A stretch of 64,000 nt of DNA from Fibrobacteraceae bacterium (GTDB lineage Bacteria; Fibrobacterota; Fibrobacteria; Fibrobacterales; Fibrobacteraceae), in NCBI GenBank assembly GCA_017625775.1, contig JAGAKE010000002.1:186001-250000 (forward strand), written 5' to 3'. The notes beneath the pieces are model-generated. The model saw only the letters and a program-made list of their open reading frames with translations, was not told the DNA's origin and searched no databases. A program made the translations under genes and the position numbers. Position 1 is the stretch's first letter. Every line of letters begins with the position of its first letter. Below are positions 4,213 to 11,385 of the stretch, piece by piece.

Positions 4213-5237
4213 TGCGCTACAGGATTATACTTTTAGGATTGCTATTTGCATCTCTTGCTTTTGCAGGGAAGAGCGCTCGTTTAGGTGGTTTTGATGGTTT
4301 TGTTGAACGTATGGGGGCTTCTGCTCGAGAATTGGGAAGAGGAAACACTGGTTCTGCCGATACTTTAGCTCAACCAGGCGCTTATTGGAACCCGGCTCTT
4401 TTAGCATTTAGAAAAAATATTTCGTATTCATTACATGCAGAAAAAAGAGATTTAGATAGAGCAGGTGGCTCTTTAGGAATTGAAGGGAAAATAGGTTCTC
4501 GCATGGGAATTGGCGGAGCTATTTTGTATCGAGGGGATTGGGATTTTAAGGTGATTGATGAAGATGATCAAACACTAGGAAATGCGTCTCCATTTTTTTC
4601 AATGATGTATTTAGGCTTTTCTTACCGATTGACTAGGCGAGATGCTGTTGGAATATCGCTTTCTATGAGTTATGATAATTTAGGAATAGCAGAATTTTAT
4701 GACGATATTGATGTAGAAGATGGTTATCGTAGCCCTGTAACTTTTAATTTGGGTTTTGTGAGACAAATTAATGAAAAATGGTCTTTATCTGTAGTCGTTC
4801 GAAATTTAAGTTTTGATAAAAATTTAACCGCTTCTTGGACAAAAACAACAAGTGGCGATAATTCTTTAGAATCAACAGAAGGCGTTCGTCCCAAAACATT
4901 GCAAGTAGGCGTGGGGTATCGTTCAGTGCTTTTTGGTCGTTACGCCGCTTTATGGTTAGAGGCGATTGATTACCAAATGTCTGAGGTGTTCCTTGCTTTT
5001 GACCCTGACGCTCATTATTGGACCGCTCGTTTAGGTGCCGAATATGAAGTAATTCCAAGAGGAATGGTGCGTTTAGGATTTGATGATATGAATTTTACCG
5101 CTGGCCTTGGTTATAGTTTTGATGTTCGTATAGGCAAGAAAAAATGGCCGTTTGAAGTGAACTATGCTTTGATTTATGAATCCGAAGCGGATCTCTGGAA
5201 TCCATTAAGTTTTGCTATAAGGGGATTTATTCCTTGA
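4212..5237 (+). CDS. PorV/PorQ-like (UPF0164-type) outer-membrane barrel
   Basis: A 341-residue barrel protein with signal peptide MRYRIILLGLLFASLAFA. The N-terminal signature MGASARELGRGNTG followed by GAYWNPALL is the hallmark of the PorV/PorQ/UPF0164 family (FadL-like fold). Later segments alternate glycine, aromatic and polar residues as in transmembrane strands. In Bacteroidota, PorV acts with the type IX secretion machinery. Here the partner could be the FlgD-domain protein encoded just upstream. Start overlaps the previous stop by one base and the end overlaps recF by 4 nt, so all are cotranscribed. Confidence 0.68.
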   Translation: MRYRIILLGLLFASLAFAGKSARLGGFDGFVERMGASARELGRGNTGSADTLAQPGAYWNPALLAFRKNISYSLHAEKRDLDRAGGSLGIEGKIGSRMGIGGAILYRGDWDFKVIDEDDQTLGNASPFFSMMYLGFSYRLTRRDAVGISLSMSYDNLGIAEFYDDIDVEDGYRSPVTFNLGFVRQINEKWSLSVVVRNLSFDKNLTASWTKTTSGDNSLESTEGVRPKTLQVGVGYRSVLFGRYAALWLEAIDYQMSEVFLAFDPDAHYWTARLGAEYEVIPRGMVRLGFDDMNFTAGLGYSFDVRIGKKKWPFEVNYALIYESEADLWNPLSFAIRGFIP

Positions 5238-6304
5238 TAGAAAAAATTCTTTTAGATGGAGTTCGAGCGCTTCCTTTTCAGAAGAGAAATTTTTCTTCTG
5301 GAATTACAGTGGTTAGTGGTCCGAATGGTTCTGGGAAAACCTCTTTGTTAGAAGCTCTTTTTCTATTATGTCAGGGTTTTTCATTTCGAACTAGAGACTT
5401 AAAATCAATTCTTTCATGGTATGCTTCCGAAGCTATTTTGCGAGCAGAATTAGTTTCAGAAACAAAACAATCAACTAGAGCGCTTCGCATTACAAAAGAT
5501 GCTATCACTGCTAAGAAAGAAGGAGAATTATGTCGAGGAGTTTCGGCGTTTTTTGGAGAATTCCCTGCGGTGATGATGCAACCTTCTGACATTGAATTAG
5601 TGCGTGGAGCTCCGGAAATTCGTCGTCGTTGGATGGATGAAATTTTATGTTTCCAATCAAAAAAAAATGCGGACTTATTACGTCGTTATCGTCGAATTTT
5701 ATCTCAAAGAAATGAATGGTTGCATGGTTTTCGTCAAGGAAAATCGGTTGGTGGAGAAGAGGTTTTTGTAGTACTTTCTCAACAATTAGTTTCTTTGGGC
5801 GCCGCTCTTTGGCAAGAACGCTTTAGGTTAATAGATAATTTATCTTTGTTAATTCCTGAATATTATTTAAAATTATCGGCAGGAAAAGAAGAAGTTCGCG
5901 TATCTTATCGAACGGTTTTAGATTCAAGAGAATCTTTAGAAACTCAGTTTATGGAATTGCTTGAAAAGAATGAAGATTCTGAACGCCGTTTAGGAATGAC
6001 ATTAGTTGGCCCTCATCGCGATGATTTTATTCTTTGGCTTTCTGATTATGAAATGCGTTCAATTGGTTCGCAAGGGCAATGTCGTTCGGCCTCCATTGCT
6101 ATGCGCATGTCTGCAATAGATGTAGCTTCTGCAATGAGTTTACCTCCTGTATTACTTTTAGATGATATTTTGGCAGAATTAGATTTTAATCGCCGTTTAG
6201 CGGTTTCTGAAATGATTCGAGAAAAAAAATGTCAAGTATTTGTAGCAACACCACAAGAAAAAGATTTACCCTTTTCGCCAGATGATTCAATTATCTTTGG
6301 CTAG
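5234..6304 (+). CDS. recF: DNA replication and repair protein RecF
   Basis: A 356-residue SMC-like ATPase that loads RecA at single-strand gaps with RecO and RecR. Visible motifs: Walker A GPNGSGKT at residues 29-36, LVGPHRDDF, the ABC-type signature region GSQGQCRS, and Walker B LLLDDILAELD. Length matches the family. The start is TTG at 5234, overlapping the preceding TGA (TTGA), with GGGG at 5221-5224 about 9 nt upstream. The gene is not next to dnaN or gyrB here but is the last member of an envelope-protein operon, an unusual setting. Confidence 0.95.
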   Translation: MIEKILLDGVRALPFQKRNFSSGITVVSGPNGSGKTSLLEALFLLCQGFSFRTRDLKSILSWYASEAILRAELVSETKQSTRALRITKDAITAKKEGELCRGVSAFFGEFPAVMMQPSDIELVRGAPEIRRRWMDEILCFQSKKNADLLRRYRRILSQRNEWLHGFRQGKSVGGEEVFVVLSQQLVSLGAALWQERFRLIDNLSLLIPEYYLKLSAGKEEVRVSYRTVLDSRESLETQFMELLEKNEDSERRLGMTLVGPHRDDFILWLSDYEMRSIGSQGQCRSASIAMRMSAIDVASAMSLPPVLLLDDILAELDFNRRLAVSEMIREKKCQVFVATPQEKDLPFSPDDSIIFG

Positions 6305-6317
6305 TAAAATATTTGAT

Positions 6318-7772
6318 TTAATTAGTTGAATTGAATTTTTGGATTATTTTTTTTGCTTGAATAGCGAAAATATCGGTATTATTGAGTTCAATGACTTTTT
6401 CTAAACGTTTAATTCCTTCTTCTGGAATCATAGATTGAGAAACTCGAATTTCACCAATTAGAAATAAGGCTTTTCGTGCCATTCTTTCGTCTTTTTCGGA
6501 AACAAGAGATTTTTCTAAAAATAAAATGGCGGCTTCGTATAATTTCTTTTGATAAGCGCTTGTTCCCCATTCTAACCATTGTATGCTTGAGATTTCAATG
6601 TATAAAGAGGGATTCACTATTTTTTTTGCAATGTCTGTAATGGTTTCTTGATCTACATCGGCTTCTAGTAAAAGAGAGTGCATTGCTTCACCTAGATATT
6701 TTCCTGCTAGAGTAAAATCGCCTCGCATAGCACAGGAAAATCCTTCATCAAGTTTAGCTCTAGTATTTTTTTTCTTTTGTTCAGCAAAGTTTTGTTTGGG
6801 AGCATTTGCTTTTTCAAGTTTCTTTTCTCTTTCTGATTCTTTTTTGCTCTTTTTGGGGAATGGTATGTATTTACCAGCGAATGTTCCGCCAATAAAAAAT
6901 ACTATGGATAAAATAATTACAGCTACATAAATTTTTGAACAGGTAAACCAATAAAGTAAAAGCCCAAATAAAAGAAGGATTGAAGCAGGGATTAGAATAG
7001 TTTTTTCTGCCATTTTTCCGGCATAATTTCTACAAATACAACCAAGAATAAAAGCTATTCCAAAAGCTAGTCCGACATACGATTCGTTATTGTTTGCAAA
7101 AAATGAAGTTTGGCTTAGACCTAATAAAAAAACATTTCCTAAAATTTGCGATGCAAATAATAGAAGAATACCGATACATTTTCCAAAACGATTTTCTATA
7201 AAATTTGCCACGAATAGAAGGCTAACTGATTGCAATAAGAAAATCCAAAGATTTGGGAAAAGGAGCCATTGAAAAAGAACTTGACTAATTTCTGGTTCGT
7301 TGGTGTTTAGTTTTAACCTATAAATTAATTTTGTGTCTGTGTAAGATTTGATGAGTTTGGTTTCTTCTTTTTGATAAAGCTTTTTGTCTGGAACCATATT
7401 TTGCACGGCAAAACTTTTGCTTCCCCCAGTTTCCCACCATTCTCGGAATTCAATTTTCATTTCTTGAATGCGTTTTTCTGGCACTAAAGAAGGATTCTTT
7501 TCTTTGTATTTATTGAGATAGGCGTTTAATTCTTCATTATACAATTCGTTTGTTGGAGAAAGCCCTACGGCTTGGAATTTGGCAGCTCCTTCTTGTTCCC
7601 AATATTCTTGAAATAAAGACTTTTGATGGGATAATCTTCTTGATTCTTGCCAAGACGGCCCATACTCTAAAATAGCTTGCATGCAAAGTATTAAAAAGGA
7701 AATTCCTAAGAATATGTAAAATGTCAAACTTTGTTGTTTGAAAAAAACTTGGATTTTCTTTAAGACAGGCAT
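6318..7772 (-). CDS. Rhomboid-like membrane protein with TPR-like tail, predicted inactive protease
   Basis: A 484-residue protein: one N-terminal membrane segment (about 19-33), a soluble region with two 36-residue repeats (FQEYWEQEG... and FREWWETGG...), a multi-span core, a basic linker near 300-330, and a helical TPR-like C-terminal region (NTRAKLDEGFSCAMRGD onward). The core follows rhomboid topology (NFIENRFG after the first core helix, IGGTFAG near the last). However, the oxyanion Asn position reads Gln, the GxSG motif reads NESY, and the final His reads Phe. This suggests a pseudo-rhomboid. It starts 3 bp after the kinase stop and is probably translated with it. Confidence 0.55.
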   Translation of the reverse strand: MPVLKKIQVFFKQQSLTFYIFLGISFLILCMQAILEYGPSWQESRRLSHQKSLFQEYWEQEGAAKFQAVGLSPTNELYNEELNAYLNKYKEKNPSLVPEKRIQEMKIEFREWWETGGSKSFAVQNMVPDKKLYQKEETKLIKSYTDTKLIYRLKLNTNEPEISQVLFQWLLFPNLWIFLLQSVSLLFVANFIENRFGKCIGILLLFASQILGNVFLLGLSQTSFFANNNESYVGLAFGIAFILGCICRNYAGKMAEKTILIPASILLLFGLLLYWFTCSKIYVAVIILSIVFFIGGTFAGKYIPFPKKSKKESEREKKLEKANAPKQNFAEQKKKNTRAKLDEGFSCAMRGDFTLAGKYLGEAMHSLLLEADVDQETITDIAKKIVNPSLYIEISSIQWLEWGTSAYQKKLYEAAILFLEKSLVSEKDERMARKALFLIGEIRVSQSMIPEEGIKRLEKVIELNNTDIFAIQAKKIIQKFNSTN

Positions 7773-7775
7773 AGA

Positions 7776-8879
7776 CTATTTCTCAGATTTGTACTCTTTT
7801 AATTGATTCCACAAAAAATCGGTATTTACATCGCGGTAACCAAGAGAGTTAATGCGTTCTCTTAATTTATGTGCAATATTAAATAAGTTTTCACATTTTT
7901 GTATTCTTTCCAAACTATCAAAAATGGTAAGGTCATCAATCCATTTTCGAACTTCAGGGAAGTGAGAATGTTCAAAAACATTTTGTTTTCCGGTTTTAAG
8001 ATGTTCTAAATATCGTTCAGTAATTCGGTAACCATCTTCAATAAAAATTTTCATAGCATCTGGAAAAAGTTGCTTGCCCGTGAGATATTCATGCAAAATA
8101 ATTCCAAAACTAAAGTAATCTACAGAAGAAGATAAGTTTTCGCCCATAACAGCTTGTTCTGGAGCGCTATAACAAGGCGTGAGTTTACCTCCGTATTCGG
8201 TAACGCTTTCTCTTAACTTTGCTTGTGCGTAGCCGAAGTCGCAAATCAAAATTTTATGATTGTTGATGTGTTCTGGGTTTTGACACAACAAAAGATTTTT
8301 TGGTTTTAAATCTTTATGAATGATTTGGTAATAATGAAGTTGGCTAATGGTGTTTGCAAGATAAGCCATTTGCGCTAGGCGTTGTATGGTTTCTTCTTCG
8401 GTAAGTTCAGTTTTAAACATTTGGTCAAGAGAACAACCTCGAATAAATTCCATTTTAAAATAAGGATTGCGCCCAGCAATTCCACCGCCAAAACTTTGAA
8501 CAACTCCTTCAATGTTAGTAGCGCGAATCAAATTGTTTATTCTGATTTCATCTTGAAACGCACTAAGAAGCATGTTTAAACGATGTGCTCTGTTTTTACC
8601 GGGTGGTGCCCAAAATTTACAGATTTTTAAAACGATTTCTCGTTCGTTATATTTGGCGGCATCTGCTGCTCGCTCTATCCAGTAGTTGGCTCGAAATAGA
8701 TCGTTCGTTCCTTCTACAGAAATAGGTTCGGTTAATTGAATCCGTTCTACAGCACCACTATGTAAAAATTCAGGATGTTGGTCGAATAAGTATTGATATT
8801 CTTCCAAAGAACAATGTTCCCGCAAGGCAAGCTTGCGGGAAATGTAATCTAGTTTATTTGAAAGCCAAGTTCTAAACAC
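7776..8879 (-). CDS. Serine/threonine protein kinase (Hanks type)
   Basis: A 367-residue cytosolic kinase. Key sites visible: the ATP-binding lysine in IVLKI (about K85), an alpha-C Glu in DEIRI, the catalytic loop HKDLKPKN (188-195, HKD instead of HRD), DFG at 214-216, and the SAPE activation-segment motif near 238-241, followed by VDYFSFGIILHE. The glycine-rich loop is hard to find, so nucleotide binding may be atypical. No transmembrane segment or sensor domain is present. The GTG start is favoured by an exact TAAATTTG -10 ending 4 nt upstream. Its membrane-bound rhomboid-like neighbour is a candidate partner (inference). Confidence 0.85.
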   Translation of the reverse strand: MFRTWLSNKLDYISRKLALREHCSLEEYQYLFDQHPEFLHSGAVERIQLTEPISVEGTNDLFRANYWIERAADAAKYNEREIVLKICKFWAPPGKNRAHRLNMLLSAFQDEIRINNLIRATNIEGVVQSFGGGIAGRNPYFKMEFIRGCSLDQMFKTELTEEETIQRLAQMAYLANTISQLHYYQIIHKDLKPKNLLLCQNPEHINNHKILICDFGYAQAKLRESVTEYGGKLTPCYSAPEQAVMGENLSSSVDYFSFGIILHEYLTGKQLFPDAMKIFIEDGYRITERYLEHLKTGKQNVFEHSHFPEVRKWIDDLTIFDSLERIQKCENLFNIAHKLRERINSLGYRDVNTDFLWNQLKEYKSEK

Positions 8880-8883
8880 GGTA

Positions 8884-8891
8884 CAAATTTA
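8884..8891 (-). promoter_or_regulatory. -10 element TAAATTTG for the kinase gene, leaderless arrangement
   Basis: TAAATT is followed by 6 nt (TGTACC) and then the GTG start at 8879. No Shine-Dalgarno lies between, so the transcript should begin at or near the start codon. Confidence 0.5.
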
Positions 8892-8903
8892 GTTAAATAA
8901 GAA

Positions 8904-9779
8904 TTAAATCACTCCAAAGGAACGTCTTGATTTTTCAAAATCGCTCTCTTGTTCATCAAGAATCTGTGTGATGTATTCGTAAGCTTCATCGACAGAATCA
9001 GTGAAGAGGAATAAATCTAAATCTTCTTTATTAATCATTCCTGTTTCGACTAAATAGTTCCAATCAATTAGTTTTTTCCAGAAGTGAGTGCCGAAAATCA
9101 CTACAGGGACTTTTTCTGAATAACGTCTGGTTTGAATAAGAGTTAATGCTTCAAACATTTCATCTAACGTACCAAAACCGCCTGGAAAAACGATTAACGC
9201 TCTAGCGATATGCAAAAACCAGAATTTTCGAATAAAGAAATATCTGAATTGCATATTGAGTGAGTCGGAAATGTAGGGATTCGGGTGCTGTTCAAATGGA
9301 AGTTTTATGTTTAAACCAGTAGAAGGTGTGCCAACATCATCAGCTCCTCGGTTTCCTGCTTCCATAATGCCGGGACCGCCACCAGTACAAATAGTAAAAC
9401 CATTTTGCTGGGAGTTACACCATTTTCCTAAACGGCGAGCTAAATTTCGAGCCGCATCGTAGTATTCAGCAACATTTTCCAAAGATTTTAAACGTTTTAG
9501 TTCTTTTCCTTTTGCCGTTTTTTTGCGTTTTTTGATTTCATCTGTGGGAAGTGTTCGTGCTGAACCGAAAAATACAATGGAATTTTGAATTTTTTCTGTG
9601 GCAAAACGTTCACCAGGAGCTAAGAATTCAGAAAGAATGCGAACTTGTCTTCCGGCATCGCCCTCTAAAAATTGTTGGTCAAGATAAGCAATTTGCGGTT
9701 CATTTTTTTTGACTTTAGTGGCCGATTTAGCGTTTTTTGAAAGTGATTCTTTTTTTGTTTTAATGATTCTATTTGCCAT
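8904..9779 (-). CDS. LOG-family (TIGR00730-type) Rossmann-fold nucleotide phosphoribohydrolase-like protein
   Basis: A 291-residue protein with the LOG family signature GGPGIMEAGNRGADD and PGGFGTLDE, which form the nucleotide-binding pocket and catalytic site of cytokinin riboside 5'-monophosphate phosphoribohydrolases, once mis-called lysine decarboxylases. Many bacterial members hydrolyse AMP or other nucleotides to ribose 5-phosphate and base. A lysine-rich tail of about 35 residues precedes the core. ATG 9779 is preferred to the upstream ATG 9794 because GGAG lies 9 nt before it. It is the first gene of the kinase/rhomboid unit, although the kinase appears to have its own promoter. Confidence 0.82.
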   Translation of the reverse strand: MANRIIKTKKESLSKNAKSATKVKKNEPQIAYLDQQFLEGDAGRQVRILSEFLAPGERFATEKIQNSIVFFGSARTLPTDEIKKRKKTAKGKELKRLKSLENVAEYYDAARNLARRLGKWCNSQQNGFTICTGGGPGIMEAGNRGADDVGTPSTGLNIKLPFEQHPNPYISDSLNMQFRYFFIRKFWFLHIARALIVFPGGFGTLDEMFEALTLIQTRRYSEKVPVVIFGTHFWKKLIDWNYLVETGMINKEDLDLFLFTDSVDEAYEYITQILDEQESDFEKSRRSFGVI

Positions 9780-9882
9780 AATAGAAATCTCCATAAAATT
9801 TCTGTTATAAGTTCTTTTGGATTATAATCCAATCTTTTCTTAAAATACACTTATTATTGTCGCCGGAGTTAAAAAAAATCTT

Positions 9883-9890
9883 TATATTTG
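9883..9890 (+). promoter_or_regulatory. -10 element TATATTTG, leaderless arrangement
   Basis: TATATT (9883-9888) ends 6 nt before the ATG at 9895. The only GGAG (about 9864) is some 27 nt upstream, too far to serve the start. Confidence 0.5.
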
Positions 9891-9894
9891 TCTT

Positions 9895-10107
9895 ATGCTC
9901 GTAAAAATTTGGACAGATACATTTGTAATTACTGGCGAAATAGATATGTTGCGTGATGAACGTTTAACAGACTATATTCGTGAAAATAAGGAATTTATCG
10001 CCGTCACTCAAGTAAAAGTGGCTGATAGAGAAGAAAAAGATTTGTTTCACACTCATTTCTTGAATGTGAGTACTCGACATATAGAAATCATTCTTCCCGC
10101 AGAATAA
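9895..10107 (+). CDS. Short conserved-looking protein of unknown function
   Basis: A 70-residue soluble protein, MLVKIWTDTFVITGEIDML followed by a helix (RDERLTDYIREN) and beta segments ending IEIILPAE. The pattern suggests a small Sm-like or beta-sheet fold. It resembles short DUF6812-like proteins I recall from other bacteria, but I cannot confirm the family. It stands alone: an exact -10 element lies just upstream and a hairpin terminator follows. Function unknown. Confidence 0.6.
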   Translation: MLVKIWTDTFVITGEIDMLRDERLTDYIRENKEFIAVTQVKVADREEKDLFHTHFLNVSTRHIEIILPAE

Positions 10108-10128
10108 ATTCTTTTAATTTTGTTTTTG

Positions 10129-10152
10129 GTTGCTGAAGACATTCAGCAACTG
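10129..10152 (+). terminator. Hairpin terminator after the 70-residue gene
   Basis: GTTGCTGAA (10129-10137) pairs with TTCAGCAAC (10142-10150) around GACA and is followed by a T-rich stretch. It separates the small gene from dxr. Confidence 0.6.
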
Positions 10153-10230
10153 ACTTTTGTTTTCTCTAAAAAAAATTCTGGTAAAATAATTAGAAAAAGT
10201 GTATTTTAAAAAAAAATTAGGAAATAAAAA

Positions 10231-11385
10231 ATGCGTAAAGTTTGTTTGTTAGGTGCTACTGGTTCTATTGGGGATTCCACGATAGATGTAATTCGTCAAC
10301 ACCCAGAAAGGTTTTCTCTTTATGCGGTGGCCGCTCATTCCAATTGGAAGAAAGTGGCTGAAATTGCATCGAAATTTCAGGTGACTCAATTGTGTATGTA
10401 TGAATCATCTGCAGCAAAAAATTTATCTGAAGCATTAGGAAGGCCAGTACTTTCAGGAATTGATGGCTTAAAGGAATTGGCGCTTGATCCTAATACAGAT
10501 TTGGTAGTAAATGCAGTAATGGGTTCAGTTGGGTGTTTGCCAACATTAGCAGCGATTGCTGCTGGAAAACAAGTTGCTTTAGCGAATAAAGAAACTATGG
10601 TAATGGCAGGACCTGTAATTCAAGATGCTTTAGCTAAAAACCCGAAAGCGTTTATTACTCCTATTGACTCTGAACATAACGCGATTTTCCAGTGCTTGGC
10701 AGGGCGTTCTTCTGATGAAGTTGAATGTTTACAGATAACCGCTTCTGGAGGTCCTTTTAGGGAATGGCCAAAGGAAAAATTTGACACTATTACGGTACGA
10801 GATGCGCTGAATCACCCAGTATGGAGCATGGGGAAAAAAATTACGATTGATTCTGCTTCCATGATGAATAAGGGATTAGAAGTGATAGAAGCTCATTTTC
10901 TTTTTGGAATTCCTTATGAACAAATCAAGGTGGTGGTGCATCCTCAAAGTATGGTTCACTCATTAGTTCAATTTAGAGATGGCAGTTTGATGGCGCAGTT
11001 AGGCGCTCCTGATATGCGTATTCCTATTCAAGTAGCGATGACTTGGCCAGAACGTTTGAATTTAAAAACAGATAGGTTAGATTTACCATCTCTTGCTAAA
11101 TTGACGTTTTTCTCTCCTGATTTTGAAAAATTCCGTTGTTTAGCTTTAGCTTATGAAGCAGGCAAAAAGGGAGGCGTTGTGCCCGCGATGATGAATGCGG
11201 CTAATGAAATATTAGTTGCTTCTTTTCTAGAGGAAAAAATTCGCTTTGTTGATATTCCGCTTTGTTTGGAAGAAATAGTGGCTAAAGCACCTTCTATTCA
11301 AGGACGATTAACTTTAGATGATGCTCTTTCCGCAGATAAAGAAGCGAGAATTTTAGCTGAAGAATGGATTAAAAGACATTCTTAG
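10231..11385 (+). CDS. dxr: 1-deoxy-D-xylulose 5-phosphate reductoisomerase
   Basis: A 384-residue enzyme of the MEP isoprenoid pathway that converts DXP to MEP with NADPH. Motifs: NADPH-binding GATGSIG (8-14), ANKETMVMAG, the metal-binding PIDSEHNAI, SGGPF, the flexible lid NHPVWSMGKK, and DSASMMNKGLEVIEAHFLF. Length is normal. TTAGGA lies about 9 nt before the ATG. It is a single gene between a terminator and the putative small RNA. The presence of dxr points to the non-mevalonate route, which would supply the prenyl chains used by the UbiA-type enzyme at 51931. Confidence 0.96.
   Translation: MRKVCLLGATGSIGDSTIDVIRQHPERFSLYAVAAHSNWKKVAEIASKFQVTQLCMYESSAAKNLSEALGRPVLSGIDGLKELALDPNTDLVVNAVMGSVGCLPTLAAIAAGKQVALANKETMVMAGPVIQDALAKNPKAFITPIDSEHNAIFQCLAGRSSDEVECLQITASGGPFREWPKEKFDTITVRDALNHPVWSMGKKITIDSASMMNKGLEVIEAHFLFGIPYEQIKVVVHPQSMVHSLVQFRDGSLMAQLGAPDMRIPIQVAMTWPERLNLKTDRLDLPSLAKLTFFSPDFEKFRCLALAYEAGKKGGVVPAMMNAANEILVASFLEEKIRFVDIPLCLEEIVAKAPSIQGRLTLDDALSADKEARILAEEWIKRHS

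Follow-up and report, generated by a model that had tools for sequence, protein, structure and literature searches.

The gene at positions 6,318 to 7,772 of the window (the whole stretch of 64,000 nucleotides that was analysed, from a Fibrobacteraceae bacterium) probably encodes a rhomboid pseudoprotease that has turned into a transmembrane receptor or scaffold, a reading to which we assign a probability of about 60%. Its parts and neighbours are listed in Table 1. The genes on the minus strand follow one another in the order LOG-type gene (the product of which we take to be a LOG protein), kinase gene and pseudorhomboid gene, the last being a frame of 484 codons that begins 3 nt past the kinase stop. 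A preliminary description of this DNA had recognised an open frame translated together with a kinase, and had proposed that its product combines a core of rhomboid topology, two N-terminal repeats, a TPR-like C-terminal tail and the absence of catalytic residues; all of these elements are borne out by the analyses presented below. A scan of positions 6250-10300 for promoters and terminators gave counts close to the shuffled expectation. The host genome comprises 55 contigs (1,982,209 bases in total, completeness 71%), and among named relatives the closest to turn up was a Fibrobacteraceae MAG from yak cecum, with a kinase identity of 89%.

Table 1. Features of the pseudorhomboid gene and its surroundings (positions in the window, residues of the window protein)
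Feature	Position	Strand	Basis or remark
Pseudorhomboid, 484 aa: TM1, double hairpin (predicted extracytoplasmic), TM2-TM6, TPR tail (predicted cytosolic)	6318..7772	-	frame, AlphaFold2 model, alignment
Repeat 1 (predicted extracytoplasmic), residues 46-91	7500..7637	-	profile built from 24 members
Repeat 2 (predicted extracytoplasmic), residues 101-146, with W113 and P128	7335..7472	-	
Rhomboid-like membrane core TM2-TM6, residues 161-306, without histidine	6855..7292	-	
Q181, GlpG Asn154 position (S182 by alternative alignment)	7230..7232	-	
A236, position of GlpG catalytic Ser201	7065..7067	-	Ser in 38/44 members, Ala in window protein
S289, position of GlpG catalytic His254	6906..6908	-	His in 0/44 members
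C-terminal TPR tail, residues 329-484	6321..6788	-	model and structure matches; homologous to tail of intact rhomboid-TPR proteases
Ser/Thr kinase, soluble-looking, 367 aa	7776..8879	-	Pfam match, motif alignment
LOG / TIGR00730-type protein, first gene of apparent operon	8904..9794	-	Pfam Lysine_decarbox
RecF/RecN/SMC family match, convergent from the other side	5234-6304	opposite to pseudorhomboid	

A rhomboid-like core and its missing catalytic residues

As judged from its predicted structure, the window protein is a six-helix rhomboid-like membrane fold. The AlphaFold2 model, built with 27 homologues, has a mean pLDDT of 89.0 and a pTM of 0.59, and its best match in the PDB with the VIA-align aligner is the rhomboid protease GlpG (2xow; Z 15.4, rmsd 3.5, 170 residues, model residues 16-305). 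The ten top matches are all GlpG structures (Z 14.5-15.4, model residues 13-306). TPR proteins match residues 329-484, a different part of the model, at Z up to about 14, which leaves the rhomboid match a margin of only about 1 in Z over the best of them. The tail matches TPR structures by fold with Foldseek as well as with VIA-align, and 3 of the 27 members match the Pfam family TPR_14 with E 0.1 or better (the best being 0.023). The tail is predicted to lie inside, since six hydrophobic segments are predicted in the protein; hydropathy and the rhomboid template together suggest an arrangement with the N-terminus inside, the repeats outside and the tail inside.

Direct searches gave a different picture from that of the second aligner. 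The 50 top Foldseek matches of the model, mostly TPR and designed helical proteins, include no rhomboid and nothing at E 0.001 or better. Against the Pfam Rhomboid family (PF01694, gathering cut-off 22.6 bits) the window protein scores 10.9 bits and a family member from another genome (G021) 21.7 bits, with 4/27 members matching at E 0.1 or better (best 0.0018). The core profile compared directly with 30 ordinary rhomboids reaches a probability of 0.5, similar to the reversed control (0.7), and when PDB sequences were searched with a profile at E up to 1, the 40 sequences retrieved included a GABA receptor, TMEM87A and designed TPR chains but no rhomboid. Because these direct profile, PDB-sequence and Foldseek searches found no rhomboid, the case for homology is built on the second structural aligner and on the rhomboid-TPR intermediates described in the next section, through which alone rhomboid homology is detectable by sequence.

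The catalytic Ser-His dyad and the oxyanion residues are missing from the window protein. Catalytic positions were tallied in 44 members (the 27 aligned members and 17 new ones among the 30 loci returned by a phylum-wide profile search), drawn from the 97 genomes of the window's family with a full match, leaving out seven members from genomes that lack the kinase gene, and aligned with nine relatives. The equivalents of GlpG His145, His150, Asn154 and His254 are gone in 44/44 members; at the His254 position 32 members have Ser, 6 have Glu and 2 have Thr, and the remaining four each have a different residue. Of the residues that the preliminary description had assigned to the catalytic positions, the Gln in place of Asn stands in one alignment (Q181) and gives way to S182 in another, with Asn gone in both. 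The two others have to be replaced: the counterpart of the GxSG motif of GlpG is G234-L-A236-F237, with the NESY proposed before lying just upstream, and the final His corresponds to S289 and not to Phe. The verdict on catalysis is independent of the alignment register, since the core of the window protein contains no histidine at all, and for this protein an active protease with its residues at shifted positions and a Ser-His mechanism is thereby ruled out. For the group as a whole, a cryptic protease with relocated catalytic residues would be in keeping with the Ser retained at the Ser201 position by 38/44 members and with a His found in the TM3-TM4 loop of many members from genus g2, but it is very improbable given that neither His at the His150 and His254 positions nor Asn at the Asn154 position occurs in any of the 44 members, that the core is without any His in 7/51 members, and that the window protein has Ala at the Ser201 position.

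The two repeats sit between TM1 and TM2, each being modelled as a helical hairpin, the first of which extends the TM1 helix. They are identical at 13/46 positions and align with a Smith-Waterman score of 72 (2000 shuffles: mean 22.3, maximum 44), and profiles of repeat 1 and repeat 2 from 24 members match each other with a probability of 97.7 (E 2.5e-12); three loci (L052, L053 and L039) were left out of these profiles and of the 41-row crown set. W113 and P128 are invariant across all 27 aligned members. Conservation has moved from the membrane core to the repeats and the tail in the window's family. Among nine diverse pseudorhomboids, invariant positions make up 10% of the L1 domain, 6% of the core and 9% of the tail, against 0%, 17% and 1% among nine intact relatives. 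The former were chosen by hand and the latter were read from an alignment also holding pseudorhomboids; the two sets differ in breadth and alignment, so only within-set ratios are compared. Positions conserved at 95% or more in the crown set amount to 20/124 in the repeats, 11/145 in the core and 24/156 in the tail.

Intact and inactivated relatives in the phylum

The family profile was searched over 167 genomes of the phylum, and full-length relatives were also found outside the window's family. Seven intact rhomboid-TPR proteins occur in families f7, f8, f9 and f12 and two more in f4, and 9/9 keep His145, His150, Asn154, Ser201 and His254. These proteases of other Fibrobacterota families (L127, L122 and L217 are examples) have the same order of TM1, extended L1 loop, rhomboid core and TPR tail as the pseudorhomboid and detectable homology to it in core and tail, but unlike it they retain all five catalytic residues. 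The doubled hairpin is not seen in the seven first-found intact relatives, in which significant family-profile matches begin at position 125 or later, and no orthologue of the window's kinase is present at the loci of these seven. One of the intact genes (L124:3977-5938, from the f12 genome G090) is divergent to a gene for a 653-residue Ser/Thr kinase, a neighbourhood that is likely due to chance, as that genome has 29 Pkinase matches.

Profile comparisons relate the pseudorhomboid, by its core as well as by its tail, to the rhomboid-TPR proteases that other families have retained in intact form. Its core profile matches the seven intact proteins with a probability of 96.2 (E 2.1e-9), and these in turn match the 30 ordinary rhomboids with a probability of 99.9 (E 4.7e-34), while reversed controls of the core give probabilities of 0.4 and 0.7. 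Two of the intact proteins (L127 and L124) also match Pfam PF01694. A core-only model matches 9/9 relatives (the seven intact ones with L128 and L130) with E 7e-5 or better, against E 0.5 for the best of the other frames at ordinary-rhomboid loci, and a tail-only model matches 7/9 with E 1e-13 or better, against E 0.002 for the best other frame. This test was not blind, since the whole-family profile had served to choose the relatives.

Three other relatives are dead in part or whole. Two belong to family f3 of the same class: L128 (5001-6410) has Thr for Asn, Ala for Ser and Ser for His, and L130 (5787-6668) has Leu for His as its only change. The f3 losses look like a separate, partial inactivation. 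Inactivation probably occurred at least twice, as f4 is intact while f3 is dead, a reading limited by the support of only 59 for the clade of f3, f4 and f5. The third is a catalytically dead rhomboid-TPR protein with a frame of 466 residues (L213, genome G038) from family f2 of the same order, which has no kinase match in the 5.6 kb around it; as this protein is also dead, the catalytic loss may predate the window's family.

Association with the kinase gene and changes of form

That the kinase and the pseudorhomboid are always paired, a check proposed in the preliminary description, is nearly the case. A kinase orthologue (E 1e-60 or better) was found in 89/111 genomes of the family and a full pseudorhomboid match in 97/111. 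All 89 genomes with the kinase have the pseudorhomboid, and none of the 14 family genomes without the pseudorhomboid has the kinase; in the other direction, 8/97 pseudorhomboid genomes are without a kinase match. In 83/89 genomes the two genes are neighbours on one strand with no more than 303 nt between them (in a set of 60 relatives, 27 genomes have a match and 24 of these have the kinase next to it). The six exceptions are G097 and G129, with the two genes on different contigs, G010, where the pair is split by contig ends, G141, where they are 9.6 kb apart on opposite strands, and G007 and G012 (one genome each of two outlying genera), where LOG and kinase genes stand together and the pseudorhomboid gene is 15.2 and 16.5 kb away on the same contig. 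LOG lies beside the kinase and pseudorhomboid genes in those of the examined crown loci whose contig extends far enough, and the three genes form an apparent operon in the crown. The kinase motifs (Lys, Glu, HKD, Asn, DFG and APE) are kept in 27 aligned orthologues, two of which are truncated. Another kinase gene of the window's genome (L137:3810-7405) adjoins a gene that codes for an ABC transporter with a fused FHA domain, and the same kinase and FHA-ABC pair occurs, going by the opening residues of the proteins, in L138, L145, L146 and L148.

Seven of the eight genomes without a kinase match are clean gene losses, and the eighth (G165) reflects a contig end, off which a kinase fragment runs; the pseudorhomboid frame at that locus (L182) is split over several pieces near the contig end. 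In the seven (L175-L181), the pseudorhomboid comes immediately after LOG, and the stretch examined contains no kinase match. As these genomes form one clade (support 1.0), a single loss of the kinase suffices to account for them. There is no clear sign of relaxation of the tail after this loss: its identity to sister genomes is 0.52, compared with 0.57 for L1 and 0.54 for the core. Among the 24 tail positions under strong conservation, one (K459 to Q) is changed in all seven and four in at least one. Since these genomes lost the kinase gene yet kept the pseudorhomboid, the latter cannot serve that kinase alone.

Other forms of the protein are found next to rsmA. The pseudorhomboids of G007 and G012 have one repeat only and lie directly downstream of this gene. 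Among 30 genomes in which the rsmA locus was inspected, six have a family match there: these two and four others (G006, G015, G036 and G009) with a protein of 267-345 residues of which the tail alone matches. The other 24 loci, 14 crown genomes among them, show no family match within 1.5 kb or less. Five further loci of genus g5 carry the same two-TM kind, two of them (L143 and L144) behind rsmA, and 3/12 genomes of this genus have no family match at all. The eight two-TM proteins read whole (237-345 residues) have a TM segment at the start, a second one about 100 residues on and then the tail, with homology to the family over about 70 residues of the latter (E 7e-10 to 2e-7). Their outer segment has two cysteines invariant in 8/8 and, compared with the repeats, yields forward scores no better than reversed ones. 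In a model of the two-TM form (mean pLDDT 79.2, pTM 0.44), one long TM1 helix is followed by helices on the outer side, by a further TM helix and by a bundle of helices that forms the tail. As homology of the outer segment was not found, the kinship of these proteins is argued from the tail, the position at rsmA and the similar helix order.

A tree of rsmA and RpoB from 30 genomes (RpoB missing in six) groups the crown with g11 (98), the crown itself (81) and g5 with g8 (100), the position of g6 being weak (39-43). The parsimonious order of events is an rsmA-linked single-repeat form, then duplication of the repeat and a move to the LOG-kinase operon in the crown, and a reduction to the two-TM form in g5/g8; the reduction is the least certain step, since the outer segment shows no homology to the repeats. 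In two sister genomes of genus g5, G023 and G026 (support 100), which are 83% and 78% complete and have only two Pkinase genes found each, the two-TM TPR-tailed protein is away from rsmA and is encoded directly downstream of a different Ser/Thr kinase gene (L139:2801-3553 and L135:5621-6427), the next gene in L139 being one for PTS EIIA; this second link to a kinase was noticed after the fact.

Possible role and known systems

The preliminary description had favoured a membrane scaffold or adaptor rather than a protease, which is supported by the lack of a dyad in 44/44 members, the shift of constraint towards the extramembrane parts and the predicted cytosolic TPR tail. If the gene product is a receptor or scaffold, the hairpins would face the periplasm and recognise some ligand or binding partner within the envelope, the six helices of the dead core would carry a change across the membrane or hold a membrane client, and the TPR tail would serve as a docking site in the cytosol, most probably for the neighbouring kinase and for one or more further proteins. 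A partner other than the kinase is proposed because the kinase-less clade keeps the tail without clear relaxation. A bolder version, tentative and with the odds against it, is a two-protein transmembrane receptor kinase, in which the dead rhomboid would sense and cross the membrane and the soluble kinase would dock on the TPR tail. It would come with a living series that starts from the intact protease and passes through a dead single-hairpin form behind rsmA and a dead form with the hairpin doubled, located in the kinase operon; a two-TM remnant with outer helices and tail only may be a further member.

The main rival to the receptor or scaffold, although we consider it unlikely, is an adaptor in membrane-protein quality control, the core of which would present clients to a degradation machine such as FtsH, with a regulatory or incidental link to the kinase. 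The survival of the pseudorhomboid after kinase loss is in line with such a role, as are the precedents: inactive rhomboids act primarily in protein quality control according to a 2025 review (PMC12615303), and the dead S288A mutant of YqgP is described as an FtsH adaptor (PMC7231995). It is, however, difficult to reconcile a client-binding core with the lower conservation of this region relative to repeats and tail, the two conserved neighbours, LOG and the kinase, are not proteases (other neighbours being partly annotated), and the TPR domain of YqgP is extracellular in that account (PMC7231995), as opposed to the predicted cytosolic tail of the pseudorhomboid. The protein could also be a membrane anchor only, tethering LOG and/or the kinase through the TPR tail without any sensing. 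The persistence of LOG beside the pair in the crown loci, and beside the pseudorhomboid in the seven kinase-less genomes, would agree with this, but the repeats are as strongly conserved as the counts at the 95% level given above indicate, and a mere anchor would not need them, which makes this explanation distinctly unlikely.

The receptor or scaffold reading can be set against several known systems. PASTA-domain kinases such as PknB/PrkC hold sensor and kinase in one polypeptide with one TM helix. As proposed here for the pseudorhomboid, such receptor kinases couple an envelope-facing sensor to a Ser/Thr kinase, the pseudorhomboid case differing in that two proteins are involved; the window's kinase scores 72.5 bits against the PASTA-kinase model (cut-off 450). 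The core of YqgP/GluP has seven helices, the iRhom homology domain sits between TM1 and TM2, and Derlins, which act with p97 in ERAD, are not known to have a TPR tail or a kinase partner. The 21 Pfam families that the 27 members match at E 0.1 include no Derlin family. The iRhom1 structure 9xy4, in which the partner is ADAM17, matches the model with Z 12.4 (rmsd 5.1, 184 residues; VIA-align), and this carries little weight because helical bundles can reach a Z of up to about 13 by chance.

According to PMC7231995, YqgP (GluP) of Bacillus subtilis is a bacterial rhomboid whose C-terminal domain consists of predicted TPR motifs and which has an adaptor role when dead, and in both respects it resembles the pseudorhomboid as proposed here. 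It is an active protease with its TPR domain outside and an N-terminal sensor domain in the cytosol, whereas the pseudorhomboid is dead and has its hairpins predicted outside and its TPR tail predicted inside. The iRhoms are catalytically dead rhomboid relatives with added domains and a regulatory role (as outlined in PMC6451368); the likeness extends to the pseudorhomboid, but the added domains are others, the proteins are eukaryotic and no sequence relation to them is shown. Derlins, treated together with iRhoms in the 2025 review (PMC12615303), share with the pseudorhomboid the dead rhomboid fold and the adaptor role as proposed.

Rhomboid pseudoproteases are a known kind, represented in the literature surveyed by eukaryotic proteins (iRhoms and Derlins) and by the laboratory-dead YqgP mutant. 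A bacterial family with a hairpin insert, a cytosolic TPR tail and a kinase neighbour was not found in a literature search by titles and abstract openings, with few subscription papers covered. The question of how a protease becomes a non-enzymatic regulator can be approached here within one phylum, in which intact relatives occur along with cousins that are dead in part and with a fully dead family that has been relocated and re-armed, and the steps from protease to regulator can be ordered and tested in Fibrobacterota. Should it be true that the kinase docks on the tail, the pair would amount to a receptor kinase split over two proteins, with a rhomboid as its base.
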